Shown here: piece by piece, positions 10,526 to 38,299 of the stretch
How positions within the stretch are numbered: position 1 is the stretch's first letter
Layout: the number at the start of each line of letters is the position of its first letter
From: Ectocarpus siliculosus
Taxonomy: Eukaryota; Sar; Phaeophyceae; Ectocarpales; Ectocarpaceae
NCBI GenBank assembly: GCA_000310025.1
Contig: FN649757.1
Coordinates: forward strand, 170,146-234,145
Length of the DNA: 64,000 nt
Reading direction: 5' to 3'
Program-made: the position numbers and the translations under genes
Notes under the pieces: generated by a model
The model's input: the letters and a program-made list of their open reading frames with translations, nothing else
Told to the model about the DNA's origin: nothing
Database searches by the model: none

Positions 10526-10741
10526 GTGTTGCAAGAAAGAAACAAAAAAGCTGCAGCAGCAGGTGTCCCTATTATTCTGTGTGGCGTCTGTCCTCTGGCG
10601 TGTGTGTGTGTGATGTGTGTGTCTTTATCATTAGCATCGACAGCGCTAGCCGGTCGACCAATGAAATGACGTCGGTCTCAGTGCGGTTGAAAACACAACA
10701 CACTTCTACGTGCCATTACCTGGAACCCGTTGAGGAGGTTG

Positions 10742-10742
<1 letters not shown>

Positions 10743-10775
<33 letters not shown>

Positions 10776-10983
10776 CCCTAACCGGGGGCGCGCAAAACCC
10801 CAAAAATTTTTCCCCCCCCCCCCTAAAAACGGGGGGGGGGATTGGGGGGTTTTTTCCGGAACAGGGGTTTTTCTCCCCAAACCNNNNNNNNNNNNNNNNN
10901 NNNNNNNNNNNNNNNNNNNNNNNNNNNNNNNNNNNNNNNNNNNNNNNNNNNNNNNNNNNNNNNNNNNNNNNNNNNNNNNNNNN

Positions 10984-11022
<39 letters not shown>
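10743..11022. other. Assembly gap with poly-G margins, probable artefact
   Basis: There are 100 Ns at 10884-10983, bordered by G runs at 10743-10773 (31 G) and 10984-11022 (39 G). Between the first run and the gap the sequence consists almost entirely of stretched homopolymers. The left run begins where retroelement copies normally read GGGGGCGCCATGGGGG. Gap length is unknown and poly-Gly or poly-Pro reading frames across it are not real. Confidence 0.85.
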
Positions 11023-11023
<1 letters not shown>

Positions 11024-11446
11024 ACTCGTAGTCGTGCATGCCGTAGTCGTCAGACCATTGACCTCGCATCCCTACAAAGCCGGGACGGAGCATGCCGGGT
11101 TTTCACCGGACCAGGCTGTCACATCACCAAGCGCGAAGCGCCGTGAGGTATTCGGCGAGTTGCATGAAGGGTGCGCTGCATCCTGCTAAGGGTGTTCGGC
11201 ATCTTGTGCTTACTTCTTTGCCTACGGATGACAGCTGCGTATGACTTAATTTATTTTCTGGTGCTTTCACTTCCAGAGACAGCAGTTGTAGGCGCTGTGT
11301 AACTGCCTCGAGAGTGCTTGACCAATCTTAACACAACGTGCGATTATCCCCTTTGCGCGGAGTGAGGGTTCTCGACCCCGCACAATAGTATCTACTCGAC
11401 CACCATTCATGGTTACCGCAAAAAGAAAAAAAAAGGCAAAAAAGCG

Positions 11447-11702
11447 CTTATTTTGGTTTCTGTCGAATTGCTTCATTATTTCTTCGGTTTCTAGGCTACG
11501 TGTTGGGGAGAGAGACGCACGAAACGCTCATCGTCTCTCCGGCCGCGTTAGCTGCGAAGGACGGTGTCAACTGTTGCAAATCCATCTCTCTCCCCACAAA
11601 TACTAGCCGGGGGACTACGACTGCAACCGCAGGAGTCCCAAAACTGACATATCCTCAAATGGTAAACACCATTCTACAACACCCGACTAGATACCGAATA
11701 TT
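11447..11702 (-). repeat. Split direct repeat B2
   Basis: Matches 12020-12293 with few differences (TTATTTTGGTTTCTGTCG ... CACCATTCTACAACACCC). The inner copy has extra bases just before ATTACCGAATA. Confidence 0.8.
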
Positions 11703-11752
11703 CCCGAACTTATGCCCCCACCTTCGAAAGAAAAGGGATGGGAGGGCGGGAT

Positions 11753-12019
11753 TTTCTAAACTGCCGCCGCTACTGCGTTAGGCGGCTGCTGCTGTCCTTC
11801 CGTTGCTTCACGCGCTCTGTAGCTCTCACACGTTACCCGACTTTGCTACAGCCCCTGCGTGAACTCGATCACGGAATGACACCCCCCAGCTCTAGACTAC
11901 AATAATAAATCCAAACACCGTGACCCTGGGTTTCCGATAGAAAATGAAGTCAAATTCTAATTCGACTGTTACAAAATAAACACCAGTTTATTCTATCTGC
12001 CCTTCGAACAAACCTTCCT
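11753..12019 (-). repeat. Split direct repeat A2
   Basis: A 267-bp copy of 14071-14337 with a handful of substitutions. It starts TTTCTAAACTGCCGCCGC and ends ACAAACCTTCCT, and abuts B1 directly. Confidence 0.85.
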
Positions 12020-12293
12020 TTTATTTTGGTTTCTGTCGAATTGCTTCATTATTCTTCGGTTTCTAGGCTACGTGTTGGGGAGAGAGACGCACGAAACGCT
12101 CATCGTCTCTCCGGCCGCGTGAGCTGCGAAGGCCGGCGTCAACTGTTACAAATCCATCTCTCTCCCCACAAATACTAGCCGGCAGACTACGACTGCAACC
12201 GCAACAAGAGTCCTAAAACTGACCAAGTCCTCAAATGGTACACACCATTCTACAACACCCACATCGGGGTCAGTTTCTGGACGATTACCGAAT
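12020..12293 (-). repeat. Split direct repeat B1
   Basis: Copy of 11447-11702. It abuts A2 without spacer and lies just beyond the 3' end of the recombinase frame. Confidence 0.8.
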
Positions 12294-12346
12294 AAGTCAA
12301 CTATGCGTTCCCCATACGGTCCCCTCCCCCGGCTGTCTCGATAGTA

Positions 12347-13114
12347 CTATCCCGCTGCCGTCTGTAAGTTCCGTGACACTCGCCGCGAATCCTCTACATT
12401 GTTTCGTGCATACGGCTTGTAGACATTCGACCTCCACTTTCCTTCTCTCTGAATCACTCGTTCTGCGATGTCTCCGCCCGATGCAAGAGCCGTGGCGCCT
12501 CCGATTCGCAACGAGTGCAACGCGTACACCTGGGGGTTATGCCCCGACTTCGCTACCACTTCTCTGACTACACGGAGGGCAGCACTATACCTCACTACTC
12601 TCACTGCTCTTCCACTACGGTACGAAGCCAACGGAGCGGAGTCAGGCAACGTCGCATGACACGACAATAGCTCCACCACAAGAGCCACCGCGCCCCCGCG
12701 TGCTCTCAAACCTGACGGCGGTCCGGTGACTTCGTCTCGCGTACGAACCCGTATGATGCCGTTCTGCTCTTGATCGGCATTGTGCCCTCTAAACCTCATT
12801 TCGACACGGTCTGCTCTACGATAGTGACCAAAGTCTAGTTGCGTCCCGTCGGCAAACAATGCTTTGTCCGTCCTTGTAAGACGGTGTGCCTCATGCACCC
12901 TGCCCGCGTCATTCGCGAACACCTCATCAGACCGTGTGATGAAGAGATAGGACAGGCACAGACACAGCCACATCACTCTGCCCCCTTCCCCCCAGTTCTG
13001 CCTTGCGCTTTCGCCGTCCAGCGGCATACGCCAAGACACAGGCAGGCGCACACGGCGTACCGTCCCCAAAGCCACGTGGTTCCTCGCCATCCCCCTTAGC
13101 GCACATTTCAACAT
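12347..13114 (-). CDS. Tyrosine recombinase (YR) of the DIRS-like element
   Basis: A 255-codon frame on the minus strand. The C-terminal half has the tyrosine-recombinase signature. The first catalytic arginine is probably R61 in FITRSDEVF. The H-x-x-R box is H200 and R203 in ALHSLRIGGATAL. W227 takes the place of the second histidine in REGKWRSN, and the nucleophile is Y232 or Y235 in VYKPYARNN. Such enzymes cut and join DNA through a covalent tyrosine link and integrate circular cDNA of DIRS elements. The lengths of the N-terminal helical part and catalytic part look complete, and there is no internal stop. The start Met is the first in the frame, but the protein may have been the end of a longer polyprotein. 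Placement between A1 and B1-A2-B2 supports a DIRS/Ngaro origin rather than a Crypton. Confidence 0.75.
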   Translation of the reverse strand: MLKCALRGMARNHVALGTVRRVRLPVSWRMPLDGESARQNWGEGGRVMWLCLCLSYLFITRSDEVFANDAGRVHEAHRLTRTDKALFADGTQLDFGHYRRADRVEMRFRGHNADQEQNGIIRVRTRDEVTGPPSGLRARGGAVALVVELLSCHATLPDSAPLASYRSGRAVRVVRYSAALRVVREVVAKSGHNPQVYALHSLRIGGATALASGGDIAERVIQREGKWRSNVYKPYARNNVEDSRRVSRNLQTAAG

Positions 13115-13141
13115 CGGAGACGACGAGTCTAGCTCGCACAG

Positions 13142-13327
13142 GTGCTTCCACTCATTGGCGCGTCCCGTGCTGATACGTGTACAGCTTTTTTTTTTTTTTT
13201 CCTTTGAGATCGGTTAACTCTACTCGCCAAAAGCACGAGTGCTTCCACTCATTGGCGCGTCCCGTGCTGAGGCTGACATCACATATGCAGCACGGGTGCT
13301 TCCACTCATTGGCGCGTCCCGTGCTGA
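13142..13327 (+). repeat. Three copies of a 32-bp unit with poly-T tracts
   Basis: The unit beginning GTGCTTCCACTCATTGGCGC and ending CCCGTGCTGA occurs at 13142-13173, 13239-13270 and 13296-13327. The first and last copies are each followed by an ACGTGTAC block, a long T run and a GAGATCGGTTAACT block. It lies between A1 and the recombinase start, in the 5' part of the DIRS-like element, and could be a leader or regulatory repeat. Confidence 0.7.
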
Positions 13328-14070
13328 CACGTGTACGACTTCGTTTTTTTTTTTTTTTGCGTTGAGATCGGTTAACTTCCACTCGCCATCAACACGGTTT
13401 TTGCTTCATTTTATCCGTTCCTGTGAATGCTGTTGTATGCACTTTCCGATTACGTATGCGGCCGCTTTGTATACCGTGGGACTTGTCAATGCCATCAGTG
13501 GAGACGATAGCTTACGTGAGCATATTATGCATTCGGCTACACTATTTTACCCGTCTGTGTGCGGCACAGACCAGGCACCGGCAAAGTAGTCCCGAGTGAG
13601 CAGCCGGAAACAGAGAACAAGGCACCTGCACCATGTACATACTCTTGACAGCACACGCCTCGTGCCCCACTGCCGCGGGTCGATTGGTTATGTCCGATGC
13701 CGCAAGGGTTCTCCACCCTGTGCAGTACAATGGCTGCTATCGTGGCACGTACAGCAGCGCGTTTTTTCCGTTAAATTATTTTTTCAGCGAGAGTACATCT
13801 CCTCGGGTTGGGATGAACGGCATCCCATGTGTGGGAGGGTACCTATCTGAACGACGTGGCGAGAGAGACTGCGGTACGCCGCTTATCTTACTGCACCCTC
13901 CCCCCCCCGTGCTAATGCACTCAGCGGTGAGGTCACAAGAGTAGCGGGACGCGGGAAGGAACACGGCAGACACGATGGATGTTGGACACAGACCCGATTA
14001 CACACCTTATATGGAGGGTCCCGAGCGCGCGCTGGTCGCTTCCCCAATGCTTGCGCCGCGTCCCGTCCTT

Positions 14071-14337
14071 TTTCTAAACTGCCGCCGCTACTGCGTTAGG
14101 CGGCTGCTGCTGTCCTTCCGTTGCTTCACGCGCTCTGCAGCTTTCACACGTTACCCGACTTTGGTACAGCCCCTGCGTGAACTCGATCACGGAATGACAC
14201 CCCCCAGCTCTAGACTACAATAATAAATCCAAACACCGTGACCCTGGGTTTCCGATAGAAAATGAAGCCAAATTCTAATTCGACTGTTACAAAATATACA
14301 CCAGTTTATTCTATCTGCCCTTCGAACAAACCTTCCT
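14071..14337 (-). repeat. Split direct repeat A1
   Basis: The 267-bp partner of 11753-12019, at the 5' end of the DIRS-like element as read on the minus strand. No target duplication is evident, as expected for DIRS-type integration. Confidence 0.85.
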
Positions 14338-15159
14338 GTAACCTGGTTGCCGTGGGGTGATCGGCTTGTTTTACAAAGTCGTTGCCAAGCTACGAAAGCC
14401 CAGCCCCGATGGCAAACATCGGGGAGGGGTGGTGGCATGGGGGGGGGCTAATCTATTCTCCGGATCAAAGACAGAAACGGTAGCAACAGAAGAAAACTGC
14501 ACACGTCTACGAAGGTTTCTACCTTGCGCTCGAGTTCGTGTTGAGTACTACTTTCACCATCATTATCCTTGCTGCCACTACAGAGGGGGGCCCGGTATAG
14601 TGCAGGGGTGTGTCCAGAGATTTTACCTGCACTATACCGGCCACCTGCACTACTCTGAAGAGTTCCCCAATAGTGCAGGTTCGTCACTTTTGAGGTTTCG
14701 AATATCCTGCACTACATAGTGCAGGTCCTGCACAATTGTACTCACTATTGAGGAGATGCTTGACTTCATGGTGTGGCGCGCACGCTTGCGGGGCTAACCG
14801 GGTACGAATGGATCGAATTACAGTAGTACTGGGCCTTGTCCTAGCGTGGGCGTGGGCAGACTGTCTCGCGACGCGTTGTGGTCCCCCCCTGTCGCACACA
14901 CACATATGTTGTAGAAGAATTACTTTTACGTTCCACCGTTATTTCTTCCTGCCTCAGCACTCGTATTGTACTGCACACTCTGAACTGCTGTCGCGCGAAC
15001 CAGCCCGTCCACGTTACTACGTAACTAACGAAGCTAAATCTCATTCCTTGTTGCCCTTATTCGATGTTGCAAAATAAAAAAGACCAAAAAGGAAAAACAC
15101 GACAGGAAGCGCGCACTGCAAGAAAACAAACAATCGCTACAGCGGACCCCCCGCCCGCA

Positions 15160-15249
15160 TTACGCGAAAATTTCCCTCATGTCTGCCTGACGCACTCGCT
15201 GAGCGGAATGCGCTGCTATCATCACCAGATCATCGTCCGCGCAAGGCAT
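15160..15249 (-). CDS. 29-codon relic fusing the first and last codons of the pogo-like element's frames
   Basis: On the minus strand the frame starts MPCADDD and ends VRQADMREIFA before TAA. The start matches MPCAEGE at 38042 in the full-length element (its zinc-binding frame). The remainder matches the transposase C-terminus there (MIAAHAAKGVRQTDMREFVDE, split here as MIAAHAAKGV and RQTDMREFVDE). The whole interior has been lost while an open frame remains. It cannot be catalytic. Whether the frame is kept by chance or does something is unknown. Confidence 0.5.
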   Translation of the reverse strand: MPCADDDLVMIAAHSAQRVRQADMREIFA

Positions 15250-15344
15250 GGTGCACCTCTGCGTAGAGCTCTCTTTGGGTCTGCAGCAGCACGTGTACCC
15301 TCGTTTCTGTGTTGATTTTGTCCGCTGTCCGTGTGTGTTGTTAT

Positions 15345-16060
15345 TGTTAGCATCGACCGCGTTAACCGGCTGACCAATGAAAAGACGTCAGTCTCAGTGC
15401 GGGTGAAAACCAAGAACACTTCTAAATGCCATTAACTGGGACCCCGTAAGGGGGCGCCATGGGGGAGACTAGCCTGTTCTCCGGATCAAAGACAGAAAAG
15501 GTAGTAACAGAAGAAAACTGCGCACGTCTACGAAGGCTGCTACACTTTGCACTCGAGTTCGTTTTGGAGTGCTTTCACCGTCATCCTCCTTCCTTCCAAC
15601 TCCATCGTTCTCATGGTCGTTTTCACAGCAACTTCTCGACATTTCTTCTACAGCCCTGCGTCGTTTGTGGTGGGGAAGGTCGTCTGGCTCGCAGCTCTTG
15701 CTCTCTTCCACGCCGCCATTCCCTCCTCGACTGCTGATTTGGTCTCTGTCATGTCCTCCTTCGTTCCCTCTCCTCCTGCTTCATCGCTGCCAAATGACTT
15801 CCCGTCATTGCCATGCTTGTCGTTTCTAGCTGCGCTACTATGTACCGAGATCCGAACCTATTGGCCGTGGTGGGAACTGATCAAGAAGTAGTCCGTGACG
15901 TTTGAAAACATCACGAAATCGCACGGATAGAAAACGGGCCAGCTCGAAGGTATACAGTCTCCGAATCCTTGGTATACCGTCTCCGAATGCTTTTTGGTAT
16001 GAAAAGCCTCAAGGCGAAGCAAGGCAGTTTTGTTGTCGAAATTACCCTTGCAAAAGGTGT
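15345..16060 (-). mobile_element. GT-targeting retroelement copy 2 (5' truncated)
   Basis: The 3' end at 15345 follows CCGTGTGTGTTGTTATTG. The 5' break at 16060 is followed at once by GTGTGTGTGTC. It is nearly identical to 17026-17740 apart from a short tandem duplication of GGTATAC.GTCTCCGAATCC around 15945-15990. It lies in the GT tract of pogo-like element 2. Confidence 0.7.
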
Positions 16061-16077
16061 GTGTGTGTCTTTGTTAT

Positions 16078-16493
16078 TAGCATCGACCGCACTAACCTGC
16101 TGACAAATGAAAATACGTCAGTCTCAGTGCGGTTAAACACACAAGACACTTTCTAAATGTCATCAACGGGAACCCCATGAGGGGGGCGGCATGGGGGGGA
16201 CTTTGCTATTCTCCAAATGAAGACAGAAACGGTAGCAACAGAAGAAAACTGCACGCATCTACCAAGTTTACTACCTTGCACTCTAGTTCGTTTTGGAGTG
16301 CTTTCACCATCACCACCATCCCCCTTGCTTTCACCCCCATCATCGTTCTCATCATCATTTGTACAACAACTGTTTTTCGCCAGTTCTTCTCTGTCCCCCT
16401 GCGTCGTTTGTTGTGGTGAAGGTCATCTGGCTCGAAGCTCTCGCTCTCTTCCACGCTATAATTCCCGCCTTGCTTGTTGTAATGGTCTTTGTG
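16078..16493 (-). mobile_element. GT-targeting retroelement copy 3 (5' truncated)
   Basis: Starts with the same 3' end (TTAGCATCGACCGCACTAAC) after GTGTGTGTC and is cut at TGGTCTTTGT, followed by GTGTGTCC and the right end of pogo-like element 2. It is more diverged than copies 2 and 4. Confidence 0.65.
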
Positions 16494-17025
16494 TGTGTCC
16501 AACCTGCACTACTGCAGGGCAACGCGGTGCCCAACCTGCACTATAGCGGGACCGCCCTCAGTATTGCACGACCTGCACTATTGAGGGCGCTGTCCGTGTC
16601 CAGAGATTTTACCTGCCCTATACCGGCCACCTGCACTATTCAACCTGCACTATAACAGGCCCCCCTCTGTACCATCATTCTCACCATCATTTTGACAGCA
16701 ATCATTCGGCCGTTTTTCTCTAGCCCTGTCGTTTGTAGTAAAGGTCGTCTTGCTCAAAGATCGTGCTCTCTTCCGCGCCATGATGCCCTCCTCGACTGCA
16801 GTTTTGGTCTCTTTCTTGTCCTCCTCCCGTTCCCTCTCCTCCTCCTTTATCGCTGTCAGACGAATTCCCCTCATTACCATCCTGGTCGTTTCTATCTGCC
16901 TACTACCGAGATCCCAACCTGTGGGCCGTGGTGGAAGCTGATCAATATGTAGTCAGTGACAATTGAAAACGTCCCGAGTTGGTATGGACAGAAAACGAGC
17001 CAGCTGTGTGTGTGCTTTTACTATT

Positions 17026-18620
17026 AGCATCGATTGCGTTAACCGGTTGACCAATGAAAAGACGTCAGTCTCAGTGCGGGTGAAAACCAAGAACACTTCT
17101 AAGTGCCATTAACTGGGACCCGTAAGGGGGCGCCATGGGGGAGACTAACCTATTCTCCGGATCAAAGACAGAAACGGTAGTAACAGAAGAAAACTGCACA
17201 CGTCTACGAAGGCTGCTACACCTTGCACTCGAGTTCGTTTTGGAGTGCTTTCACCGTCATCCTCCTTCCTTCCAACTCCATCGTTCTCATGGTCGTTTCA
17301 CAGCAACTTCTCGGACATTTCTTCTACAGCCCTGCGTCGTTCGTGGTGGGGAAGGTCGTCTGGCTCGCAGCTCTTGCTCTCTTCCACGCCGCCATTCCCT
17401 CCTCGACTGCTGATTTGGTCTCTGTCTTGTCCTCCTTCGTTCCCTCTCCTCCTGCTTCATCGCTGCCAAATGACTTCCCGTCATTGCCATGCTTGTCGTT
17501 TCTAGCTGCGCTACTATGTACCGAGATCCGAACCTATTGGCCGTGTTGTGAACTGATCAAGAAGTAGTCCATGACCTTTGAAAACATCACGAATTCGTAC
17601 GGATAGAAAACGGGCCAGCTCGAAGGTATACCGTCTCCGAATCCTGTTGGTATGAAAAGCCTTTGGGCGAAGCAAGGCTGTTTTGTTGTCGAAATTACCC
17701 TTGCAAGAGGCTTCATATGCAAAGTAGTTAGCGATGGCTACGATAAGTCGATTGGTGCATTTGCCAAGGCCACCACACGTTGAAAAAGCAGGAGTAAGGA
17801 GGGTAGATCTGCACGGGTTGAAACTTCCAGCATAGTGATTTGCCTTACTTGCAGCTAGATCTTCGAGGGCGGATCCTGGCTTTTGGATCGACATGTACAT
17901 GCCTCGACCTGCGGACGGGTTTACTATTGCTACGTCTACAAGAATGCACTTGGGGCAGAGGTTCTCTACTTTATCTCCTGCGTGTAATCCTGGGGGGATC
18001 CCGAAGTTCACCTTGTAGAGCCCTTTTCCCCTACCAGTGCCTGTAGTAAGTGGGGAAGAGTGTTCTACGGCGATAGGCATGTGGCATTTGTGAAATGTCT
18101 AAAAGATCACGCGAGCCATCCTGTTGTGCAGGAAGGTCGAGGCGCCGGTCTTCGTGCAGACCAGGGAATGGTATCGGCTCAACCGTTTCTTGCACCGCGA
18201 CAATGCACCTGAATCGCAAAGCCTGCCTGTGTCACATTCAGTTTGATCATGGGTCCCCAGCACACAACCGATTGCCTCTCGATACAAGTCAGGCAGCACT
18301 CGTTCATCTGGCGAGAGTCCTTGTGTTGTCAGCCACGACAAAACTCCGCTGCCTTCGACTTCCTCCAAGCGGACCAACGCTCTCTTCCTTGACGTTTCCT
18401 GCAATCCGACCTTCTTGAAGTCTGTCTCCAACATATGGCGCACTGCCGTATGAAGAGGTTTCAACAGAACAGCTTTTGCCCCAAAAACTTGGTAGTGCCC
18501 GCCAAATTCATTTCGGCCGCATGTCGACGGTGTTTGCCTTTCTTTGTCAGGGCTGTCGCCTCCATCGCTTCTCCCCACCTTCCCAGCCTCCATGACAAAA
18601 ATTCCTTGAAGAGGGGGAGT
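17026..18620 (-). mobile_element. GT-targeting retroelement copy 4 (longest copy)
   Basis: The 3' end at 17026 follows GTGTGTGTGC. The upstream limit near 18620 meets GAGTGTGTATGC. It contains about 0.5 kb of 3' untranslated sequence (17026-17513) and 1.1 kb of decayed coding sequence (17514-18593). The untranslated part includes CCAAT and ACGTCA-like blocks within GACCAATGAAAAGACGTCAG, present in nearly all copies. Confidence 0.7.
17514..18593 (-). pseudogene. C-terminal part of a retroelement polyprotein
   Basis: Two minus-strand frames (18593-18099 and 18080-17514) are separated by a stop near 18097. The first carries a Cys/His cluster (TECDTGRLCDSG, SRCKKRLSRYHSLVC, LHNRMAR) that resembles the zinc-binding site after the reverse transcriptase in many retroelements. 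The second has LVDVAIVNPSAG, then KANHYAGSF, then LLTPAFSTCGGLGK and RLIVAIANYFAYEA. An acidic ...DV..VNP segment followed by a Thr-Cys-Gly-Gly block is typical of the C-terminal, restriction-endonuclease-like part of such polyproteins. The reverse transcriptase itself is absent, so assignment to a non-LTR class rests on 5' truncation and the constant 3' end. At least one stop breaks it. Confidence 0.45.
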
Positions 18621-18633
18621 GTGTATGCTTGAA

Positions 18634-18690
18634 TTGTTAGCATCGACCGCGCTAACCGGCTGACCAATGAAAAGACGTCAGTCTCATTAC
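18634..18690 (-). mobile_element. GT-targeting retroelement copy 5 (3' stub)
   Basis: Only about 57 bases of the 3' end remain (GTTAGCATCGACCGCGCTAA ... GTCTCATTACG), followed directly by GTGTGTGTGTGTG and the right end of pogo-like element 1. Confidence 0.6.
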
Positions 18691-18826
18691 GGTGTGTGTG
18701 TGTGTAGTGAACCAGCACTCTTGCTCGGCGCCGTCCTATTGAGGGCGCTGGCTGTGTCCAGAGATTAACCGGCACTATGTTGGGCACCGGCACTATTCAT
18801 CAGGCATTCTCTAGGTCCCTGTACTG

Positions 18827-19219
18827 TACATGCTTCGTCAATATGAACAAAACCTTCGACTGTGTCGCTCGCTTAATAGGGTGGTGGAAGATCTCGCTGC
18901 AAGCGGGCCGTTTATGGCCTTGTCGGCGCAATCCGTAGATGGCATCGATGTCTGCGACGGCACGGAGGGCATGGATAGCGACAAAGGCGACGGGGCTCTC
19001 CTCGGTCACGGGCAGATCCAAGGTGAACAGGTGTCGGCCTGCAATAGTCCTGCGAGGATTATCGACACGGTCTCCGATCGGCCAACTGAGAACGGGACTG
19101 CGTCCACGAGGTTTCCCGAACTGAGTGAGGGCAGCGGTTTGATGGAGAGTTCTATGGATGATGAAATTGCTACCAAGGATTGGTTGGATGCGACCCATGC
19201 CATGTTAGATGAACTCTGA
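18827..19219 (+). other. Last exon of copy A, downstream part
   Basis: Continues the frame from 9962-9970 after the transposon: MLRQYEQNLRLCRSLNRVVE ... ATKDWLDATHAMLDEL, then TGA. It is rich in Asp and Glu (MDSDKGDG, SSMDDE) and ends in the DWLD.THAML motif that copy C also has (EDWLDVTHAML). An acidic tail with bulky hydrophobic residues would fit a transcriptional activation region, which is inference. Confidence 0.65.
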
Positions 19220-19910
19220 TTTGTAACTCGAACAACCCAACTTTGTTGGCATCCTTTGGTTGGAACACCAGCGGGGCGCTTTCTTTCCTTCTCCCTTGTG
19301 TAGTCTGAATATGGCTAGAGGCTGCGTCACAACAGTCCATAGAGGCACAGCCTTTGCAATAAGAAGGTACGTCACGAGAAACGCAATTCAGTGATTACCA
19401 TTGCCCCAATCTGTGCTTCTTGATATCTGAGGGTTTGGCGAAGGTTTTGAAGTTCAATGTATGTAGAGCTCATCACGGTGACATACGTTCGGCTTCATTC
19501 GCGTGGAGGAAGAGTACAGCACGCACATACCTTGCACCCGCAAAAAGTGTTGTTGACTCGGATTGTTTTCCTGGAAAGTGCGAAACCATGATGGCGATGG
19601 TTTGCAGCCTGTTCAGGAATTGCCACCAGAAGTAGGCTTGAACTAGTTGGCGGTGTTAATCGCTTCGAGTTCTTCGAGTTGTTCCTCTGTATTTGGTTAT
19701 TATATCGCCTCGAGGGGTGTATTGCGAGGTGTGATATGCATGCGCACCTGCTGCTGCAGAAAGCCTTGAGAGAAAATCGCCTGTTTAGGACGCATAGGTG
19801 CAAAATACAAGTAGGGCGTACCAGTTGCCGTGGAGTTTTGATTTTCTGCCAAGCACGCAAACGACTTGTTCTGAATCTTTAGGATTGAAGAACTCTTGCA
19901 GCCAGAATGC
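19220..19910 (+). other. Duplicated 3' flank of the regulator gene
   Basis: The stretch has counterparts after copies B (45200-45830) and C (59342-59910), including CTTCCTTCTC...GTGGTCTG or GTGTAGTCTG, TTCTTGAACT.GTT, and GCAGCTGCTGCAGGC or CACCTGCTGCTGCAGA. It probably holds the 3' untranslated region and downstream sequence of the duplicated locus. No separate gene is recognised. Confidence 0.4.
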
Positions 19911-21468: not shown

Positions 21469-21505
<37 letters not shown>

Positions 21506-26991: not shown

Positions 26992-27668
26992 TTAGCTTCG
27001 ACCGCGCAAACTCGTTGACCAAATATTGTACGTCAATATTTCCGGCTAAAACTACAAAGTGCTTCTATCGGCCACGATCTGGGAACATGAGGGAGTGTCA
27101 TGGGGGAGTCTACGCTACTCTCTTGATTTATGACAGATTCCGTAGCAACATAAGAAAACTGTACATGTTCACCGTGGCTGCTACTGCTTTGGACGCTCGT
27201 TCGTTTCGGCTTGTTGCCTGTATTGTCCTCCCCGCATTTTCTACCACCGTCATTCTTCTCGCCAATATCCTCACTACCCTTGGCAGGTCTTCCCTACAAT
27301 ATTCTAATCGCCTCCACCCTCCTTTCTCCCCTTTCCCTTTCCTTCATCTCCGTCACTCCCAAAAATACTACCACTCTCATGCCATCACTACCCTCTTCAC
27401 TACACCACTATACTGAAATCTCAACCTGTTGGGCCGTCGCGGACTTTAGTCGATCAGTAGTCCATGACTTTGAAGGAGTCACGAGTTCGTACCAAGAGAA
27501 AACGAGCCAGCTCTGAAGGTGGACTGTCTCCGAATTCTGTTGGTACGGTAATCTTTATGGAGAGAAGCTGTCTCATCGTCGAAATTTCTCCTGCAAAAGC
27601 TTCGTAGGCGAAACGGTGGCGATAGCTACGATTAGTCGCCGAGTGCTTTTTGGCAAAGACCACCATGC
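26992..27668 (-). mobile_element. GT-targeting retroelement copy 6 (5' truncated)
   Basis: Diverged copy. The 3' end at about 26992 (TTAGCTTCGACCGCGCAAAC) follows CTTGTGTTTTTC. The 5' break near 27668 falls in the codons matching TCGGLGK and is followed by GCTGTGTGTATGC. The minus frame keeps FAYEAF, SELARFLLVRTRDSFKVMDY, related to SCKGNFD ... FELARFLSVRIRDVFK of copy 4. Confidence 0.6.
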
Positions 27669-27997: not shown

Positions 27998-28528
27998 TTA
28001 AACAGGGCTTCGCGCTCCACCCTCTGCTTCGACCACTTCCGCCCAAGATTCAGCGTCGACCTTTCGCGCGTCGTCCTGTTCACGTACCTCGGCTATGTGC
28101 CACATGTTGGCCGCGTACGAGTCTAGGAAGAACGCCGTCCAAGCAACCGACATATCTTCCTTCATTCTGTCCGAGTGTGGGTACGCTGAACTTGCAGTTG
28201 TGCTGGGTGTTGACAGTTGCTTAAGAAGAAGGTATTGTGCAGTTCGCCTGTCTCGGAGGGCTTCAACTTCGTCGGTTCTGTCTTGGAGTGAGGTAGGATT
28301 CAACTTGTGGTCAGTGTTGGCGGAGGTCAGGGTCGACGTAGGGAGAATAGGAACGTGCGACAAGTACCAACACGACGACTTTTGCGATATGAACGATGCC
28401 ACAATAATGACGCCGAACAAAGTCAAGGCTTTGGCCTCGACCGTATTGCCGTAGACACGCCCTTCAATACCTCGTCCTTCCCAAATACTTCTTAATGCTC
28501 CGTCCGAAGGTACATGTACAGTAAACAT
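27998..28528 (-). CDS. Hypothetical protein frame
   Basis: A 176-codon minus-strand frame. Its second half (RTDEVEALRDRRTAQYLLLK, then SVAWTAFFLDSYAANMWHIA and EVREQDDARKVDAESWAEVV) has the charge and helix pattern of a real protein, with a possible short coiled coil. It is not recognised. It lies upstream of retroelement copy 6 on the same strand but is not part of the segment shared with copy 4. No introns were resolved. Confidence 0.25.
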   Translation of the reverse strand: MFTVHVPSDGALRSIWEGRGIEGRVYGNTVEAKALTLFGVIIVASFISQKSSCWYLSHVPILPTSTLTSANTDHKLNPTSLQDRTDEVEALRDRRTAQYLLLKQLSTPSTTASSAYPHSDRMKEDMSVAWTAFFLDSYAANMWHIAEVREQDDARKVDAESWAEVVEAEGGARSPV

Positions 28529-28676
28529 TGTCGTTTGATCAAATTTGCATCACCATCATCTCACCGGCGATATACCCATTCAGACGGACTCAACAACGGC
28601 ACCTTCAATAACCATAACATCGCCCTTCCGAACGGACGAAAACAGCCGCTCGCCACCGCGAATCACCACAGCACAG

Positions 28677-28714
28677 TCCTTTTGGACAGAATACAGCCCT
28701 TTTGGACAGAATAC
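28677..28714 (+). repeat. Tandem duplication of an 18 to 19-bp unit
   Basis: CCTTTTGGACAGAATAC occurs twice in direct succession, separated by AG. Confidence 0.8.
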
Positions 28715-30104
28715 TGTACGCCAGCCGACGGCGACCGCGAAACTTACCGGCACCTGAACTGATTCCGTCTTTGATTCTTTTGCCGACATGCGTATCAGCC
28801 AAACCAAAGGGGTGACGTTCAAATTCATTCGACGATATGTTTTGTATCAACCCGTCCGGGCGGACGTGCTAGCTTTCAAGTCTCGTGCACCAGTCGTGCT
28901 TTTCTTGCGGTTGGATTTGTCGGGTGAGCTCCCGTTCTCAGCAGCCCTGTGCTTTTTCGTGAATGATATGATCAACAATGGCTTGAGACTGCGGGGCCCC
29001 GCGTCCCTGGTGCGTGACTCTTCTTTAGAAAATTTACACAATCTCACAGAAAGCCTACCCGTTCGAGATATAGCCAAAGTCGAACCACAGTCGAAAGGGA
29101 TGCGCTGAAGTATTTTCAGTGAGTGGAGGTATACCGCGTGGAAACTGGGTGTGTTTTGAGATCGTTTATGCCAATACATACTGAAATGTATCAGTGATGG
29201 CAGCTGGTGCTAAGAACAAAAGCATCTGTATTCTCGTGTTGCATTACGCCATTCGACTCACCGATCTACCGCTCCTTCGAGAGGCTCGAAGTGCAGCTCA
29301 CAGTATCCATAGAAGAATGTCGGTAGGTCCGACCTGTGCTCGGTTGAACCCCGAAAACGTGACTCCGAGACCGCCTTATACTCTTGATGCTGTTGCTGTA
29401 AAGTGGATGAAATTGTCCACCGGAAGCACGTCAGAGAAACAAAAAATGCGAATTAGCTGGAACAGACCATTTTCACTCCCAGGAATGATGCAAGCAGGCC
29501 GCCGGACCGACTCACTTGAAATGTATATAACGCATCAGTTGCTGTGATACACAGAAGCCAGAACTGATTTGATCACGAGTCAGCAGCGATGCGCACTCAT
29601 ACACACGGCAGGGGCAGGGTAAAAGCGTCACCCAGTCTTGCATAACGCCGTACAGGTAGGCAAGCACTGCCATGCCAATGCCCTGGGAGTACAAAAATGA
29701 CCGACAAGAGGGACTGTCCGCGTGAATATTTATCTTTTTATAGAGCACCTTGGGCCCCATGGGAACGTGTGCATACGTCAGGCGTCCGAATCTACAGTGT
29801 GAACAGAGAATGGAAGGTCATAAGGCAGGGGTCCAGAAAGGGCGGATAACAAAGCGCAAGACCGGCCGTCATCTTCGTGGAGGGTATCCCTGCTGAATTC
29901 ACTTCGCGATGTCAGCGTCTGCTGACCCGGGTTGTTATTAGCCAGTGTTTCGTAGGTATTTCGCCACCTACCACCAAGCCCAAGTGAAGCACGGAGGCCC
30001 ACCGCATGAGCAAGCCACTCTGGCACCGCAAAATTGAAAATCAATCTCCACCAGTTTGGATTTGAACTTCACATGTACATACTAGATTTGGTCACTTTTC
30101 ATGC

Positions 30105-30335
30105 TCACGCATGTCTTTCTCTCGCGGCAACGAGTCTTTCCTCGGCATTCCTTCTTTGTGGCAGGCAGGAGGCTCGTCGGTACATTAACGCTGGTGCCCG
30201 GAGCTCGGTAGGCCTCCGTGGCAAGTGAGGTTGATGGTCAAAGTGGCGAAAAACGGTTCTATTCCCCGGGGGGACGTTCCGCACAGACAAAGCCTGGCGA
30301 ACCAATTCTGAAAGCCATCAAAAAAGGGCGTGTGA
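30105..30335 (-). repeat. Dispersed repeat shared with 58660-58780
   Basis: On the minus strand TTTCAGAATTGGTTCGCCAG, GCTTTGTCTGTGCGGAACG and a later CCACGGAGGCCTACCGAG block match the plus strand at 58660-58780, just before the last exon of copy C. It sits in intron 4 of copy E. Its nature is unknown. Confidence 0.5.
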
Positions 30336-30351
30336 AATATTTGTCTCTTTA

Positions 30352-31576
30352 GGCCACTTGTTAAGCTGTCCTTTTTTGGGCTGTCCCTTTTCTCAAAAAG
30401 GGACGAACCAAAAAAGAATCTAGCAAAAACATGACCCACTTGTTACGGTGCTGGTCGATCCTTTTTGCTCATCCGCCAAAAAAAATGACCCTGCAACAAC
30501 AAGTGCAACGGCCGTTCGTCACCCAATGAGTACCTTGGCACCGAGTTGGTTTTTCGGTGATATCTCCGCACAGAGCGAAGCATCAGCAACTGTAAAGCTA
30601 TCCCCCGCGAGCTGGGTGCTTGGTCCGCCTTGTGTGGCGGCTGATCGAGACCACAGGGCAGTGGGAGGCACGGCAACTGAGGTGGCGAGAGTCAACAGCA
30701 CCTTGAAAAACCCCACCGCGCCAACAACCAGCTTTGTTTGCTCTTTTTTGCCCATGCCGCAACTTTGGTTCATGGATGCTCCCTTGCCACACACTGAAAC
30801 AACAGCGATGACAAAGGTATCCGCCACGAGCTATGTGTATGGTCCGTCTTGTGTGGTGGTTGATACAGACCAGAAGGCTGACGGGCGGTCAGAGGTTGTG
30901 AGCCCGAGAGTGGTGGACAAGCGGGAAAAATGACCCGCCGCGTCTCCAAGCATATTTTTGGTTCTTTTTCCCCGTGTTGCAACTTTGGTTCATCGATGCT
31001 CCCTCGTCACACACCGAAGCAACAGCGATGACAAAGGTATCCGCCATGAGCTGTGCGTCTGATTCGTCTTGTGTGGTGATTGATACAGACCAGGACGCTA
31101 TAGGTCGCCCAGAAGTTGGGTTCGCAAAAGTTGACTGTGCACCAAAAAGACCCACCGCTGCTGCGCCCAGGCTCTTTCGGCTCGTTTGCCGCTTGTTTGC
31201 CGCACACATCGGGTTGTCCACCTGGTCAGCCGAATGACAACATTACGTCTATCGCCGAGGCTACTTACTCCGTACCAGTCACATGACACGACTCGTGCGA
31301 ATACCGTTAGAGTTTGCGGGGATCATCCGTCGAGATATTCAATCAAGTTTGTGGGCAAGTGTCATGTGTTGTGACAGAAAAAGGACAACAAAAAAGGACC
31401 GTCCCATCCTGTCACAAAGTTGCCCAAAAAGGGACAGGATGGGGCGATCTTTTTTCGCTGTCCCTTTTCGGGAGGTTCAAAAATGCAAAAAAAGACCACG
31501 TAACAAGTGGTTCTTGGTCAGTTGTCCCTTTTTTAGAAAAGGGACAGCCCAAAAAAGGACAGCTTAACAAGTGGCC
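30352..31576. mobile_element. Harbinger-like non-autonomous element, TTA duplication
   Basis: Near-perfect terminal inverted repeats of about 42 bp begin GGCCACTTGTTAAGCTGTCC. TTA flanks both ends (30349-30351 and 31577-31579), which fits the three-base TWA duplication of PIF/Harbinger elements. Motifs such as GTCCCTTTT and ACTTGTTA recur near the ends. The interior carries three diverged copies of a unit of about 220 bp (near 30550, 30750, 30970), each with TTGTGTGG.G..TGAT..AGACCA. No transposase is visible. Confidence 0.7.
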
Positions 31577-32802
31577 TTACACTGTCCATAACAAAAAAGA
31601 CACATGACCCTCGGGCAATGCGTATGTGGTCTTGCGTCACCCGCGGGAAGCTTGACCCGAAAGGAGACCTCGTACAGTAGACTAAAGGATATGGAAAATC
31701 GGTTGCGCTGACAGCCGGTTCCATGAAACACGGTCTTCAGCAAAATAGATATGCAAGATCATGTTCCTACAGCAAATGCAAATCAGAATACGCATGATCG
31801 GCTTCATCGGAAGCGGATGCCTTTCCGAGACCTCGCTCAACTCCGCCCCTCGGGCGATCGCATCGAAAATCTCTTCTTCGTCTCAACGCCCAGGAACGTC
31901 AAACGGATACCCTCGGAGCCAGGTTTACGCAGCGTAACAAATGATTTTGGTCGTCCTACCTTCCCAGATGAAGGGCGTGCACTGCACTCGTCAATACAAA
32001 TCCGACGTAGCTGCTTTGAGTCCAGCAACGCCATGAGTCGTTGGAATAACAGTACTCTGTATTGACTGTGCGAAGGCAGATCGAGATCCAGGACTTGAGC
32101 ACCGCACAGTATTCAAACCACCTGATGAAGCTCCGCACTCAGCCATCGATGTGCATGGTGGCGGGAAATTCGGAGGCTTGAGACGAATGTGGCCGGTAAA
32201 TTGTGAGCCTCACACAATACTTGCCATCTGTCTGTCACGCATGCATCTGTCTGTCGGAATCATGTCTACGTTGTTGCTGCTCGTGCTCCTCGGCGGTGTG
32301 ATGTGTGATACTTTGTCTCGCCAGGCATATGCCGCATGCGTTCCTCTTCCAGATGAAGGCATACTATTTGTGCGTGTTTTGCGTCGTCCGCAGAGCGGGA
32401 AGACTTGATATCATATTTTGTTTTTTTCGTGGGTCGTGGGTGTGGGTGTGTGCATCATCGTACCGCAGAGTGCAACATGTTGAACGGGGCCGCAGCACTA
32501 CAGATAGCGCCCGCAGGCAAGGAAAAATCTGTTAAGAAGAATAGGCTAAGAAACACAGCTCAATGTCGGCCACAAACCAAGAAACTCCCCAATAAGAAAC
32601 ATGATGGTGCGACATACCCAAGACATAAGTAACAAGAGGTAGCTGGGGGATCGCGTCAAAGGCAAGAAACGTCCAACTGCTGCTCCGGTGCTCCCAACCC
32701 CCTACGTAACATAGCTGAACAGTGCATCGTTTTGTGCGGGGGAGAGTGGTTGGTTTCGCGGCGCCCCCCGCGCCCCTGCTGCTCACTGTGGTGTACTACT
32801 AT

Positions 32803-33908
32803 TAGAGTTATTTAAAACTCGATTCATGGACCGGCGGGACCTTTTTGGGCCTTTCGCTGCTTTGTACATTTTTGGTGAAAAACTCTCGTGATATCAAACC
32901 CGAGAATACATCGTCACAGGATAAAAATACAGGACTGTTAGCCTGCGCCAATACATCCGCGGACAGCTGGTGTGTGGGCAAGTGGGCTGCCGTTGTGGTG
33001 CAGCCAAATTTGATCAACCAGAAACAAGCAGCATTCGAAATAAGAGTGCCTTTGTTCAAGGTTATACGAATATGCACACCCTTACGTAGTGAACGAATAG
33101 CGGACAAGGCGCGTTCGTCTCTGCCAAGAGCGCCCCCAACCCACGCCAGCTGGTACTCCATATGTTGGCCCTCGGGCACGTTGATTGATAAAAAACCGTT
33201 GGTCCTTTTTCTCTTTTTTTTTGTGCCAAAGACAAAACGAGAGAGAGGTAAGAAAAGACAGGCAGACAGGCATATACGCACACCCTGTGCATCAACGGCA
33301 ACAACAACCTCCAGCCTCCCCGCTATGCCGACTAGGAAGGGCCGCCCTCCCCCCCTCAAAAATAACGGGGCAGCCCATAAGCTACGCGGCGAGCCTTGTG
33401 GAACTGTGTCTGTTCGTTAGTTCGTCTGTGCTTGCGTGCGATGGCGGCACCAAAGAAAGCGAGAAAGAAAAAGGAGCACGACGAGAGAGGAGGGCAGAGG
33501 GAAAAGAGAGGGTGCAGCAGCATGCAGCAACCTCACGTACGCGTTGATACGCATGCAGCACAAAAAAATATTCCGGGCAGTGCCTGAAAGCTTGGTTGGG
33601 GGCTGGCGGTGGTGGCGGCGTTTGTTATGACTGTTTGCTGTGTCTTTGCTGTTGTGACGGCGGTGACGTTTGCTGCAAAAGCGAGGAGAGAAGAGAGGGA
33701 GGGAGGGAGATAGAGAGAGCAGCTACAGTAGTAGTCTGTTCGTCTCGGAACACAAATATATACTTGGGGCTCTGGAGCCCCAAACATATTTTTGCTCACG
33801 ATTCATGCATTTTTGCCCAAAAGTCCCCTCCGATATAAAACTCGATTCATCTACTTTTCGGGCTCTTTCACTGGTTTCATGCATTCTTTCGAGTTTTGAA
33901 TAACTCTA
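32803..33908. mobile_element. Putative TIR element
   Basis: The ends TAGAGTTATTTAAAACTCGA and TCGAGTTTTGAATAACTCTA are inverted with one mismatch. AAAACTCGATTCAT appears near both ends. A CTACT pentamer occurs on each side but is not flush on the left, so the target duplication is unsure. The family is not identified. It lies within copy E. Confidence 0.45.
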
Positions 33909-34404
33909 CTACTGCATACAGTACTACTGCCACACATCGCGGACGACCACATGCTGTCCTGTGCGGGTTGACGGCACTCTCCACCACCTTTCGTGAAGGC
34001 TTGAGGAAGAAGTGGATTTTCCCCAGAGATCAAAAGGTAGAAATAAGGAATTGCGAAGGAATAAGAATGGACGACTTCGGCTGATCCTTCCACCCAAAAT
34101 AAGAGGGATCGAGGCTCGACCCGGTTTTGACGTTTCTAAACTGCGGGCGCCATCTGTATTACATATTGGTCCAATGGCTGGTCCAATCGCTCGGTGCACG
34201 TAGCTGCACCACATACGATTCTTCACGCTGCTGTGTATCGGCATTGGCGCACCATCAGCATCGCAGATATACTGTAAGACTATTGCACGGAACTGAGTCG
34301 ACTCCGCGACTGCAAAAAATACCATTTTTTACGCCGCCCTCGTACGTCAGTAATCACCCCGCCCTCGTACATCGATCGACTGAGCCTTGCCTCACCGACT
34401 GAGT

Positions 34405-34557
34405 CTTGCCGACGAGGTCGCCATCACAGCTCTTCTTTTTCCGTCCACATTCTGAGCAACTTCGGCGCATTCCGGGCGGGGTCGGCCGGAAACAAGTCTC
34501 CTTACTGCCATCGCTGTTCTTCCCGTGATACAACGGCATCGCAGTTGAAGTATCCAT
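34405..34557 (-). other. Copy E exon 1, zinc-cluster first half
   Basis: C-SE-C-GRKKKS-C spacing (C-x2-C-x6-C) is intact. The segment that should read DGQRPC reads DGDLVG. The expected splice donor is changed to GGCAAG. Confidence 0.6.
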
Positions 34558-35146
34558 GGATACGCTCCTTGGTTGTTACATGAACCACTCTGTAGAGAGA
34601 ACAACACTGCACACGAAAACAATGGGGGCGACAGGCAGGCGACAGAGACTCACACTCACAAGGGCTAGAGGGGGGACAACAGCATGGCGACGTGGGCGGG
34701 GAACTGGCGGGGTTGTGGTGATTGGTGAGAAAAATATACAGAGAACCAGTCCGCTCCTATTGGGTGATTCTCGGACCTCGGACTGACCTTCATCGTTCGT
34801 TTGATTCTTTTTGGATGGCATCGGTTCACAAAGCTGAAGAAAATATGTCGTCATTCCAATTCCAAAGGTTGTTGTTGATAGGTCGGGTTGATGCAGTTGG
34901 CGACCAAACCCCGGAGGAGACTGAACCCTCGGCTGCCTGCCGCAGCCGGCTGCCTGCGGGATTCGTTCTTATTATAAGTTGAGAGAGAGCGGCAGCTGGC
35001 CCGCTGTACTTTTGCGCGCGGCTTGAGGCGGTAGCTGTAGGTGGCAATCCGTAGATCTCCTAACGGTTTTTCGAGGTCATCAACGTACACGTCACACAAA
35101 TGCGCAAGAACATTTACTGGTTTACGCGTGTGTTATTTATTTAGGA

Positions 35147-35198
35147 TAGACTCGCTACCGGCTGACCAATGAAAATACGCCAGTCTCAGTGCTGTGAC
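35147..35198 (-). mobile_element. GT-targeting retroelement copy 7 (3' stub)
   Basis: GACTCGCTACCGGCTGACCA...CGCCAGTCTCAGTGCTGTG matches the retroelement 3' end. It is preceded by CGCGTGTGTTATTTATTTAG and followed by GTGTGTGTTTGTG. Confidence 0.5.
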
Positions 35199-36351
35199 GT
35201 GTGTGTTTGTGTACCTGTTCTGTACAGGAGTACGACCATCAACGACCCGTGCAGTTCCCGCCACATTACCATGGTACTGCTGTGTGCTGTTTTTTCGGCG
35301 TTCGAGTGTCTCGCTATTAGACGGGTCGCGCTGGTGTGGCCCCTCTCTTCTTTCTGGGCCTGCGTGTTTGTTTGCATGCGCAGACAGACGGCCAGACGAC
35401 GTGCTCCGTGCCGCGTTGTCCCCACGCACCAAGTCCCCCCGACGCCCCAGTCCCTCCAGGGCGTCCGCGTTCGCGAAAGCTCAAGCTCGAATAGTCGTTC
35501 AGCGTTCAGCGTATGTTTGGTTCTTTTTGGAATGACACAAAGTTGCATGCCACATCCAAAGTTTGTTGTTCGGGTTGATGCAAAGTTCGAACAAGCTGTT
35601 GGCTACCAACCGCCCTCGGAGGAGACTGAACCCTCGGCCGCCTGCCGCAGCCGACCGCCTCAGGAAGTCGTGGATTCATCCTTATTAACGTTAATATTCT
35701 ACTGTATGAAGGGCCAACGAGTGGCAGGTCGTCGTCCTACTACAGTATAACCGCGCGGCTGAACACATGATACCCCGCCGGTGGGCAAACTATTATCCAC
35801 CCGACGGCAGGATTACAGTGGGGGGCCCTCTATAATGCCGGTACGTGCGCAGGGCGTTCACCGGCACTATAGCGGGCACCGGCACAACTGGGAATAGTGC
35901 CTCAATAGTGCCAAACGGCACTATTCGGGTGATCGATATCCCTCAGTAGTGCCGGTCTGGCACTACTGAGGCACTGCTATTTGAGTTCATGGTGTATCGC
36001 TTACCATTTGCGAGGCCAACAGAGTAGCATGTGGATCGAGTGTGGTGAATATACTTTGTGGGCGGCAGGGGCAGCCTTTTCTGAGACAAATGTGGGTTCC
36101 ACTCTGATAGCTGAGTTTGCCGCGAAACCATTCCCGCATGCACGCGCAGAATTCACCTTCGGAGCCAAACCCCGTGTACAGCTCCCGTCCGTGCAACTTA
36201 GTATACTTGAAAAAATATCACGTTCCTCGCTGCCTCCCTACGATGTTGCGTGATGAGACACGCCAACAAAACCAATAAACGCGCCAGCAACGAAGCGGAC
36301 ACAAATAAAACAAAACAAAAAGAAAAAAACTGCGGTATAGCTGTCCCCCCC

Positions 36352-37815
36352 TCACTCATCAACAAACTCTCTCATGTCTGTCTGGCGCACGCCCTTAGCG
36401 GCATGCGCCGCGATCATCGCCATCTTCGCTTTCGATAGGTGGAACGCAGCGTCCCCGTTTCCACTCTCCCGCGCGGCCACCTCCAGGACGCCGAAGTGAG
36501 AAGACAGTTCACCGTAAGCCGGTGGGGCGCGGCGGCCGCCCCCCGTGTCCTCATGATCACTGTCCGCCTCATCTTCGGATTCCTCCTCGCGGCAGGTAGA
36601 TAGGCGCGTTCGTTCCCGCTAGCTGTGCCGTCATTTCGTCCGCTGCATCCTGTCGAAAAGCCTCCACCACGTCATCGTCATCCTCGATGGTAGCCCACGC
36701 CTGAACTAAGTCCACCTCCTCCTCCGGGGCAGGCTCTCCGGGTGAGACGTTGAGTTCTGCGAACATTTCACTCAGGTCCTCGTCTTCGATGCGAGACCCC
36801 TGCTGCTGCGCGTCGTGCACGCTCGTGCTCAACGAGTGGACACTCTTCGTGAGGGACCTCAACGCAGGCTCGTCGATGCGGGCCTGGGTTTTCCCGTGGA
36901 GGTTGGTGAGCTCAGCCACCATCTCCTGCGGAAGCGTGTCGGCTTTGACAAAGCACCTGGTCGCGGGGTTGCCGAGAATACGAACCGCATCCGTTTTTGA
37001 GTGCAACGCAGATATTAGACGGACCCAGCGGCAGAAGTTGACTCATCCGCATGCAAAAAAAGAGGAAATTTTTATTGCAAACGAGGGATGCCCCTGCAGG
37101 AAACTTTCTAAAAAAAAATCCGTACCACCTCTGCCACGAAACGTGCCACCAAAGCTATTGTGCTAGCACCACCGCCCGAGTTGAAGCATCTACATAGCAA
37201 CAGAACATGTTCAAACCTGACCTGGCGATGTCCTGGGGAGTGACGCTGCCCCATGCTTTCTGAAGAAGTTCAGCGGCGTCCCGTAGGTGAGGTAACCAAC
37301 CGTTGGTGCCCCTTCGCCAGCCCCATCGTCCCGGCCTTCATCTTACTGGCTTTGGCCTGGGCGCGAAGGGTCTCAGCGACCAACATTGTGGATGCCTTCA
37401 CGTCGAGCAGCTCCTTCCTGTAGAGGACCTTCGTCTTCGCGATGATCCCCATGTCCATGGGCTGGTGCAGGCTGGTGCAGTTCGGAGGATAGAACTTGAT
37501 GGTAACTTGCCCACGATCATCAACGAGATCGCCGTGAGAGGAGCAGCCGTCCATCAGGAGCAGCACCTTTTCGTGAGTGAAGCGCCGAATGAACGGGAGG
37601 AAGACTTCAAGCCACCACTTGAGGAACGTCGCGGAGTCAGACCACGCGTTGGCCTGCGAGAAGTACTTCAGAGGTGAAGGCGCGTCCGTGAAGCAGCGAG
37701 GCACCTTCGACCTCCCGATGATGGCCATGTCCACCTTTGCAGTGCCGTCGGCGTTGCTGCACATGATGGCAGACATCCGATCCTTGAACCACCTGCCCCC
37801 CCTTTCTCTGTCGGA
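36352..37815 (-). pseudogene. Pogo/Tigger DDE transposase, truncated and frameshifted
   Basis: Cut-and-paste transposase of the pogo/Tigger group (DDE_1 type). The frame 37776-37270 has VLLLMDGCSSHGD (second catalytic Asp, residue 76) and PPNCTSLHQPMDMG (third acidic residue, Asp108). It is preceded by WFKDRMSAIMCSNADGTAK, with a TAA at 37816-37818. The first catalytic Asp and the DNA-binding N-terminus are missing. Near 37310 the frame shifts, and the correct reading continues GTNGWLPHLRDAAELLQKAW. Next comes an acidic region (37006-36569), then another shift near 36595, and an end at MREFVDE with TGA at 36352-36354. Inactive. Confidence 0.85.
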
Positions 37816-38042
37816 CGTTTAGATGGTCCCGCCCCAGCATCAACCCCAGCTGCAGTCGCTTTGCGCTTGCCAGTCTTAGCAGCGACGCAAGAACTGCAGA
37901 TGCGGGACGTTTCGAAGTCACCCTCCACGCTGCCGCAAGTGCCATGGAGCCGCCCGCCACATCCTCCCTTGCAGACGTGGCCATGAGGGGCCTTCGGCGT
38001 TCTGTTCTGTTGAAGGCACAGTTCACCTTCCGCACACGGCAT
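37816..38042 (-). CDS. Cys/His zinc-binding frame at the 5' end of the pogo-like element
   Basis: Starts MPCAEGELCLQQNRTPKAPH and continues HVCKGGCGGRLHGTCG ... RICSSC, a C-x2-C, H-x-C, C, C-x2-C arrangement suggesting a PHD- or ribbon-like zinc domain. It then becomes Lys/Ala-rich and runs out of frame with the DDE part. It could be the N-terminal domain of the original transposase or a passenger. The start codon is shared with the relic at 15249, which shows it belongs to the element and not to the host. Confidence 0.5.
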
Positions 38043-38299
38043 GGTGCGCCTCTGCGTAGAGCTGTGTTGGACTGCAGCAGCACGGTGTCTGTATTTTGGG
38101 AGTGTGGTGGTGTGTGTGCGTGCGTGTGTGAACCGGCACTATTGCGGGCTGACGTGGTGCCCAACCGGCACTATACCAGGCCCGCCCTCAATAGTGCCGT
38201 TTGGCACTATTGAGGGCGCTTTCTGTGTGGAGAGATTTTACCGGCACTATACCGGCAGTTGGCACCATTCAACCGGCACTATAGAGGGCCCCCCACTGT

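Follow-up and report, generated by a model that had tools for sequence, protein, structure and literature searches.

A probable GT-repeat-targeting LINE of the brown alga Ectocarpus siliculosus and its carriage by a pogo-like DNA transposon

We analysed a 64-kb stretch of the genome of the brown alga Ectocarpus siliculosus (contig FN649757.1, positions 170,146 to 234,145; hereafter the window), in which truncated copies of a retroelement lie beside GT repeats, some of them inside pogo-like DNA transposons. The element is a 5'-truncating retrotransposon without long terminal repeats (a non-LTR retrotransposon, or long interspersed nuclear element, LINE) with a reverse transcriptase (RT) domain. 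Its family, probably encoding a restriction-like endonuclease (RLE) and CRE-like, very likely uses target-primed reverse transcription to insert at GT runs. What is new here is that an occupied transposon is present with the same LINE-derived passenger (~750 bp) at 11 loci of the genome, the passenger having travelled with it.

GT runs at the two ends of the copies

The 3' end of the element was searched for over the whole genome (189 Mb, 492 contigs). A 19-base core of this end, with at most 1 mismatch, gave 1,069 matches (563 + 506), and the exact sequence TTAGCATCGACCGCGCTAACC has 204 forward and 199 reverse occurrences. GTGTG is present within 22 bases of the 3' end at 165 of the 199 reverse-strand exact sites, counted with one entry per site among the matches listed; the forward-strand figure (521) was left out of use because overlapping matches inflate it. 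CACAC at equal spacing is found at 3 of the 403 exact sites (1 forward and 2 reverse). The orientation is fixed, the 3' end being preceded by GT and not by CA.

We read 60 copies, taken from the first 61 core matches listed; selected by an exact match to the core, they are biased toward well-preserved copies. On the 3' side (left), a GT run of at least 6 bases is present in 49 of 59 copies (L053, which contains Ns at this place, was excluded), against a background of 2.2% of the window's 30-base stretches, while an AC run is present in a single copy of the 59 (background 1.7%). At the 5' truncation point (right), a GT run of the same length is found in 31 of the 46 copies that were judged, the background being 3.0% of the window's 40-base stretches, and an AC run in 1 of these 46. 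The 14 copies left unjudged on this side comprise 7 that belong to a non-autonomous family described below and 7 that extend past the fetched stretch. Binomial tails against these backgrounds are ~1e-71 (left) and ~1e-36 (right), values that ignore relatedness between copies. With a stricter score, requiring 10 of 12 bases to be alternating GT (background below 1%), 43/59 left and 29/45 right junctions pass.

Several counts weigh against so general an association. Both sides pass the stricter score in just 21 of 45 copies, a GT run of 6 is absent from the 3' side in 10/59 copies and from the called 5' end in 15/46, and L023 and L060 are plain exceptions on the left side. The GT-less junctions include cases of decayed GT (right side of L011, left side of L034), and some are probably misplaced called ends. 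The initial annotation of the window had proposed a microsatellite-targeting retroelement, and had named two outcomes that would speak against it, most copies elsewhere being flanked by non-GT DNA and GT lying at one end only. Neither is what the genome contains: GT adjoins the majority of the 3' ends, both in the genome-wide count and among the copies read, and is also present at most of the judged truncation points. The proposal is supported by the GT found at these two places.

All seven copies listed in the initial annotation were found in the window, with correct coordinates. Read along the + strand of the window, they show GT, then a short T-rich stretch, then TTAGCATCGACC or a variant of it, and their bodies extend rightward to a variable point where GT resumes. 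With GT and a constant end at the left and a variable stop at the right, the element therefore reads right to left, its 3' end lying at the left GT run. The statement that every junction is GT-rich holds insofar as GT lies at or near the junctions; it is slightly too strong because the old copies ending at 26992, 35157 and 47737 are exceptions, in which the 3'-side GT is merely short, decayed or offset. The last of these is an eighth copy (~47670-47737), older, in the opposite orientation and not among the original seven; a GT run at 47783-47790 sits ~45 bases off its 3' end. The head-to-tail stacking of truncated copies is borne out by the nested stacks in transposons A and B (Table 1).

Table 1. 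LINE copies, pogo-like transposons and GT tracts of the 64-kb window (TIR, terminal inverted repeat)
Feature	Position	Strand	Remarks
Pogo-like DNA transposon A; three stacked LINE copies in its GT tract	9971-18826		TIRs and flanking TA
GT tract of transposon A, adjoining the 3' end of LINE copy 1	10600-10621	+	
LINE copy 1, 3' part	10631-10730	-	colinear blastn pieces; continues at 14436-14577 and 16672-17005
LINE copy 1, central part, interrupted by transposon B	14436-14577	-	
Pogo-like DNA transposon B, within LINE copy 1; GT tract holds two stacked LINE copies	14581-16669		TIRs and flanking TA
5'-truncated LINE copy in GT tract of transposon B	15347-16057	-	
Second stacked LINE copy in transposon B, stops at GT 16490-16497	16077-16488	-	
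LINE copy 1, 5' part, stops at GT 17005-17014	16672-17005	-	
LINE copy 2, the window's longest, with RLE-like coding region	17024-18618	-	67% identity to part of P0001, a protein of L007
LINE copy 3, ~55-bp 3' stub, stops at GT 18692-18705	18637-18690	-	
Older, divergent LINE copy; GT weak at 3' side, short at 5' side	26992-27668	-	
LINE 3' stub, GT-rich flanks on both sides	35157-35192	-	
Pogo-like DNA transposon C; GT tract empty	35816-38298		TIRs and flanking TA
DDE_1 transposase fragment of transposon C	37273-37818	-	Pfam PF03184, E 4.5e-26
Empty GT tract of transposon C	38100-38135	+	
Eighth LINE copy, old, opposite orientation; GT decayed and offset	47670-47737	+	

The span of LINE copy 1 has further features of its own. 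G homopolymers surround a run of Ns at 10743-11022, inside the span of this copy and of transposon A, which is an assembly gap or a sequencing artefact. Direct repeats were seen by eye in 11440-14340 (near 11750 and 14067, and near 11450 and 12025), around an open reading frame (ORF) at 12347-13213 on the minus strand; this ORF resembles a tyrosine recombinase by eye and has no Pfam match at 0.001. The interval 11440-14340 would be consistent with the insertion of a Ngaro-type DIRS element into LINE copy 1.

Identity of the element

The called truncation points of the 46 judged copies lie 46-554 bases from the constant 3' end, and a constant 3' end combined with variable 5' truncation is the mark of target-primed reverse transcription. 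To the coding region we had access through eight long copies (L001-L008), fetched via their matches to the longest copy of the window. L007 has an RVT_1 match (2310-2921, minus strand; E 6.5e-10); on its 3' side, and reading the same way, follows a 490-residue RLE-like ORF, P0001, with 101 matches in the genome, the longest window copy among them. After the RT, 4 of the 8 long copies have the pattern C-x7-C-x7-H-x3-C, 7 have [YR]K[MV][DN]-x2-IPP and 5 have DV[TA]I[VI]NP. These motifs, which we take to be the zinc knuckle and the catalytic core of an RLE, suggest that the element is probably RLE-encoding and CRE-like. Note that the CRE label is taken from PMC12477816 and from RT motifs.

A number of points count against this assignment. 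The window copy has N where the KMD motif has D; the evidence for an RLE consists of motifs, as no solved relative was found among PDB sequences for P0001, the RT ORF or profile A2; and the AlphaFold prediction of the RLE-like region, which has no Pfam match, reaches a pLDDT (predicted local distance difference test) of 30. There is also no intact full-length copy among those read. L003, the closest to full length at ~2.9 kb, is without ~1.4 kb present in L004, and upstream of the RT it gave only a weak zf-Di19 finger-like match (E 0.061). In the 5' part of L004, an inverted repeat was seen by eye at ~2540-2740 (element orientation), as would result from two insertions of its 5' segment in opposing directions.

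Mino and other R1-clade elements target (AC)n, and the R1 clade has an apurinic endonuclease (APE) upstream of the RT. The initial annotation had brought the element close to this group, with which it does share a dinucleotide-repeat target. The nine LINE ORFs scanned, however, including four from upstream of the RT in L003, L004 and L008, gave no match to an APE, which is a weak negative since the copies are broken. Because no APE was found, the comparison is unsupported, and the region after the RT has RLE-like motifs instead; kinship with Mino and the R1 clade was rejected.

A Penelope-like element (PLE) of the Chlamys group would be another source of such a pattern: Chlamys PLEs favour CA repeats, PLEs too typically leave partial copies arranged head to tail, and the RT here has a YVDD motif. 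However, GIY-YIG was without match in the same nine LINE ORFs (again a weak negative, in broken copies), no Rfam family, ribozymes included, was found at gathering score in the window or in L001-L008, and RLE-like motifs follow the RT. With neither a GIY-YIG nor an Rfam match we rejected this identity, which we consider quite unlikely even though 3 PLE/Chlamys families with 4,782 copies are recorded for Ectocarpus in PMC12477816.

The CRE-like LINE shares its 3' end with a second family, represented by 7 of the 60 copies read. Only the final ~45 bases and the tail are common to the two, the pattern expected of a non-autonomous family that depends on its partner. For one copy, the folded RNA 3' end had a z of -0.07, which lends no support. 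Two sets of repeats were considered as further GT-targeting families and rejected: other repeats found beside GT (L027, L043 and L063 by pattern, L016 by eye), the strict pattern of which has 8 genome matches, and the repeat of L025 and L046, with 2 genome matches to its strict pattern.

Pogo-like transposons and their passenger

The pogo-like transposons A, B and C have TIRs and flanking TA, read for all three, exactly at the coordinates given in the initial annotation; the DDE_1 scan covered transposon C. These features, with the DDE_1 transposase match in C, place them among the pogo-like Tc1/mariner transposons. The GT tract is, as had been claimed, occupied in A and B and empty in C. Along the tract of A, LINE copies 1, 2 and 3 follow each other in this order, copy 1 being interrupted by B. 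Other transposons hold independent LINE insertions at the homologous GT tract. In L005 and L007 a LINE 5' end sits at the GT tract of a pogo-like element, and in L074 a 72-base piece of the LINE body adjoins such a tract. The use by the LINE of a GT tract that belongs to a pogo-like transposon is thus supported.

Of the 60 copies read, 5 have recognisable pogo arms around them, corresponding to 2 events; most of the rest adjoin GT in other surroundings. With so few copies between pogo arms, insertion is not confined to one transposon site, in the manner of the Tx1L type (see below). The figure is a lower bound because most copies were read over only ~120 and ~610 bases around the 3' end; eight other copies have one or two arm-like heptamers each, which were not counted. 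The simplest reading is that GT itself is the target and the transposon one carrier of GT, and the location of the tract inside the transposon looks incidental to the GT preference. It is unlikely, in our judgement, that pogo GT tracts act as mobile landing pads favoured over ordinary GT, with the transposase multiplying LINE passengers that are unable to copy themselves and with a mutual amplification of RNA and DNA transposons.

Carriage of a passenger by the transposon can be followed at many loci. L028, L040 and L041 share their transposon flanks and their insert. A pattern spanning the 5' junction of this passenger and the right arm of the transposon occurs at 11 genome loci, and blastn finds the passenger (746 bases in L028) at 11/11 of them, complete or in pieces, with an identity of 84-100% per piece (of L091, the fetched stretch covers the 5' part alone). 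At 9 of the 11 loci the right TIR and the TA after it are readable, and the sequence beyond differs at all 9; L041 and L091 have an altered right end, and their flank is also unlike the rest. Both transposon ends were read at two loci, with TA on each side. From the same passenger junction at 11 loci with different outer flanks, it follows that one insertion was copied along with the transposon.

These composite loci might otherwise be independent insertions into the same tract, or segmental copies, and so not be transposon-borne. Such origins could draw on the presence of the passenger's family at a further site (L043) as well as in a different transposon family (L009 and L051), but the shared 5' junction and the passenger itself, found at the 11 loci, argue against them, as does the succession of right TIR, TA and different sequence at the 9 readable loci. 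We regard either origin as very unlikely. In the second transposon family, another insert is present at two loci (L009 and L051), 94% identical over 446 bases, and the sequence beyond the right TIR differs between the two.

The right end of transposon C (38020-38298) has at least 27 matches in the genome, C included, with 98-100% identity over all 279 bases and the GT tract uninterrupted (40 of 261 candidates were scored). From these near-identical ends, the pogo-like family of C has probably moved recently. The tract is uninterrupted too in five diverged transposon copies (L077-L081), and its state in these other copies implies that it predates the LINE insertions. That the GT would be produced by the element, as a tail or a copying artefact, and not be a pre-existing target is most improbable: GT beside the 3' end is very frequent and in many copies short, as such an origin would have it, but GT is also present at the variable truncation points (31/46), and the homologous transposon sites that carry GT without the element speak strongly against it.

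Two side observations concern transposons. L069-L072 form a transposon subfamily with a right arm 96-99% identical to that of C, yet without the GT tract. The EsV-1-7 domain has proliferated in brown algae and is also present in a Mariner transposase there, according to PMC12477816; in the genome analysed here, this domain (PF19114) has 150 scored matches of 880 candidates, with every match listed above the cut-off, and 0 in 14 control genomes, which fits a brown alga.

Proposed mechanism and comparison with known systems

In 57 copies the GT tract is 4 bases long or more, and in 48 of these it ends in T. The base after these T-ending tracts is T in 36 and C or A in 12; the border of the tract is ambiguous because of the T that comes next in 36/48. 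We propose that the endonuclease of the element would nick the GT strand, mostly after T, and that the free 3' end of the nicked strand would prime complementary DNA synthesis from the short A-rich tail of the RNA, which would be copied first. A second cut within the same tract would leave GT on both sides, and the new 5' junction would become a fresh target; head-to-tail stacks would arise because this junction is again a GT target. Any GT run would serve, so that the GT tracts inside pogo-like transposons would be used too, and a transposon once hit could carry its passenger onward.

Dinucleotide-repeat targeting, most likely by an RLE-type LINE, is documented here in a brown alga, and about a thousand copies can serve to study strand, junction and truncation. 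The LINE-derived insertion multiplied by a DNA transposon at 11 loci is a clear case of a simple spread route for a dead retrocopy. RLE-type LINEs are of interest as insertion tools; were an intact copy to be characterised, a natural enzyme specific for GT would be of use.

Integration is target-specific here, as shown by GT at 3' ends and truncation points, in line with most RLE-encoding clades: CRE, R2, R4 and NeSL are described as mostly target-specific in PMC4640811, where transposons and microsatellites are both given as non-LTR targets. The same paper describes the Togen families of fish, NeSL-related non-LTR elements that encode an RLE and are specific for (TG)n microsatellites. The element resembles Togen in its GT-repeat targeting and its probable RLE type, a likeness drawn from description; it differs from these fish families in its host, and transposon-borne tracts go unmentioned in the available part of PMC4640811. 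Microsatellites and other transposable elements are likewise named as non-LTR targets, and work on Tx1L cited, in PMC8869645. With (TG)n-specific RLE elements and transposon targets both in print, the initial annotation went too far in holding the use of a transposon's own GT tract to be undescribed; no report of a LINE landing in a microsatellite inside a DNA transposon was found among the titles and abstract openings covered, which include few subscription papers. One title links miniature inverted-repeat transposable elements to microsatellites in pineapple (PMC8449440).

For Ectocarpus, PMC12477816 gives 2 LINE/CRE families with 4,821 copies, 30 of them intact, making up 0.42% of the genome. 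These families share with the element a brown algal host and mostly short copies, and the element is likely one of them; a word search of the main text of PMC12477816 found nothing on GT targeting among the matches listed. Overall, GT-repeat targeting by related elements is already known, and it is the carriage by a DNA transposon that is well documented here.

A LINE-in-transposon system reportedly exists in Xenopus, formed by Tx1L in Tx1D. Tx1L is specific for one Tx1D site and uses an APE. Both there and in Ectocarpus, a non-LTR element lands inside a DNA transposon; Tx1L differs by its one site and its APE, whereas here GT runs are used in many contexts, the transposon being only one of their carriers.

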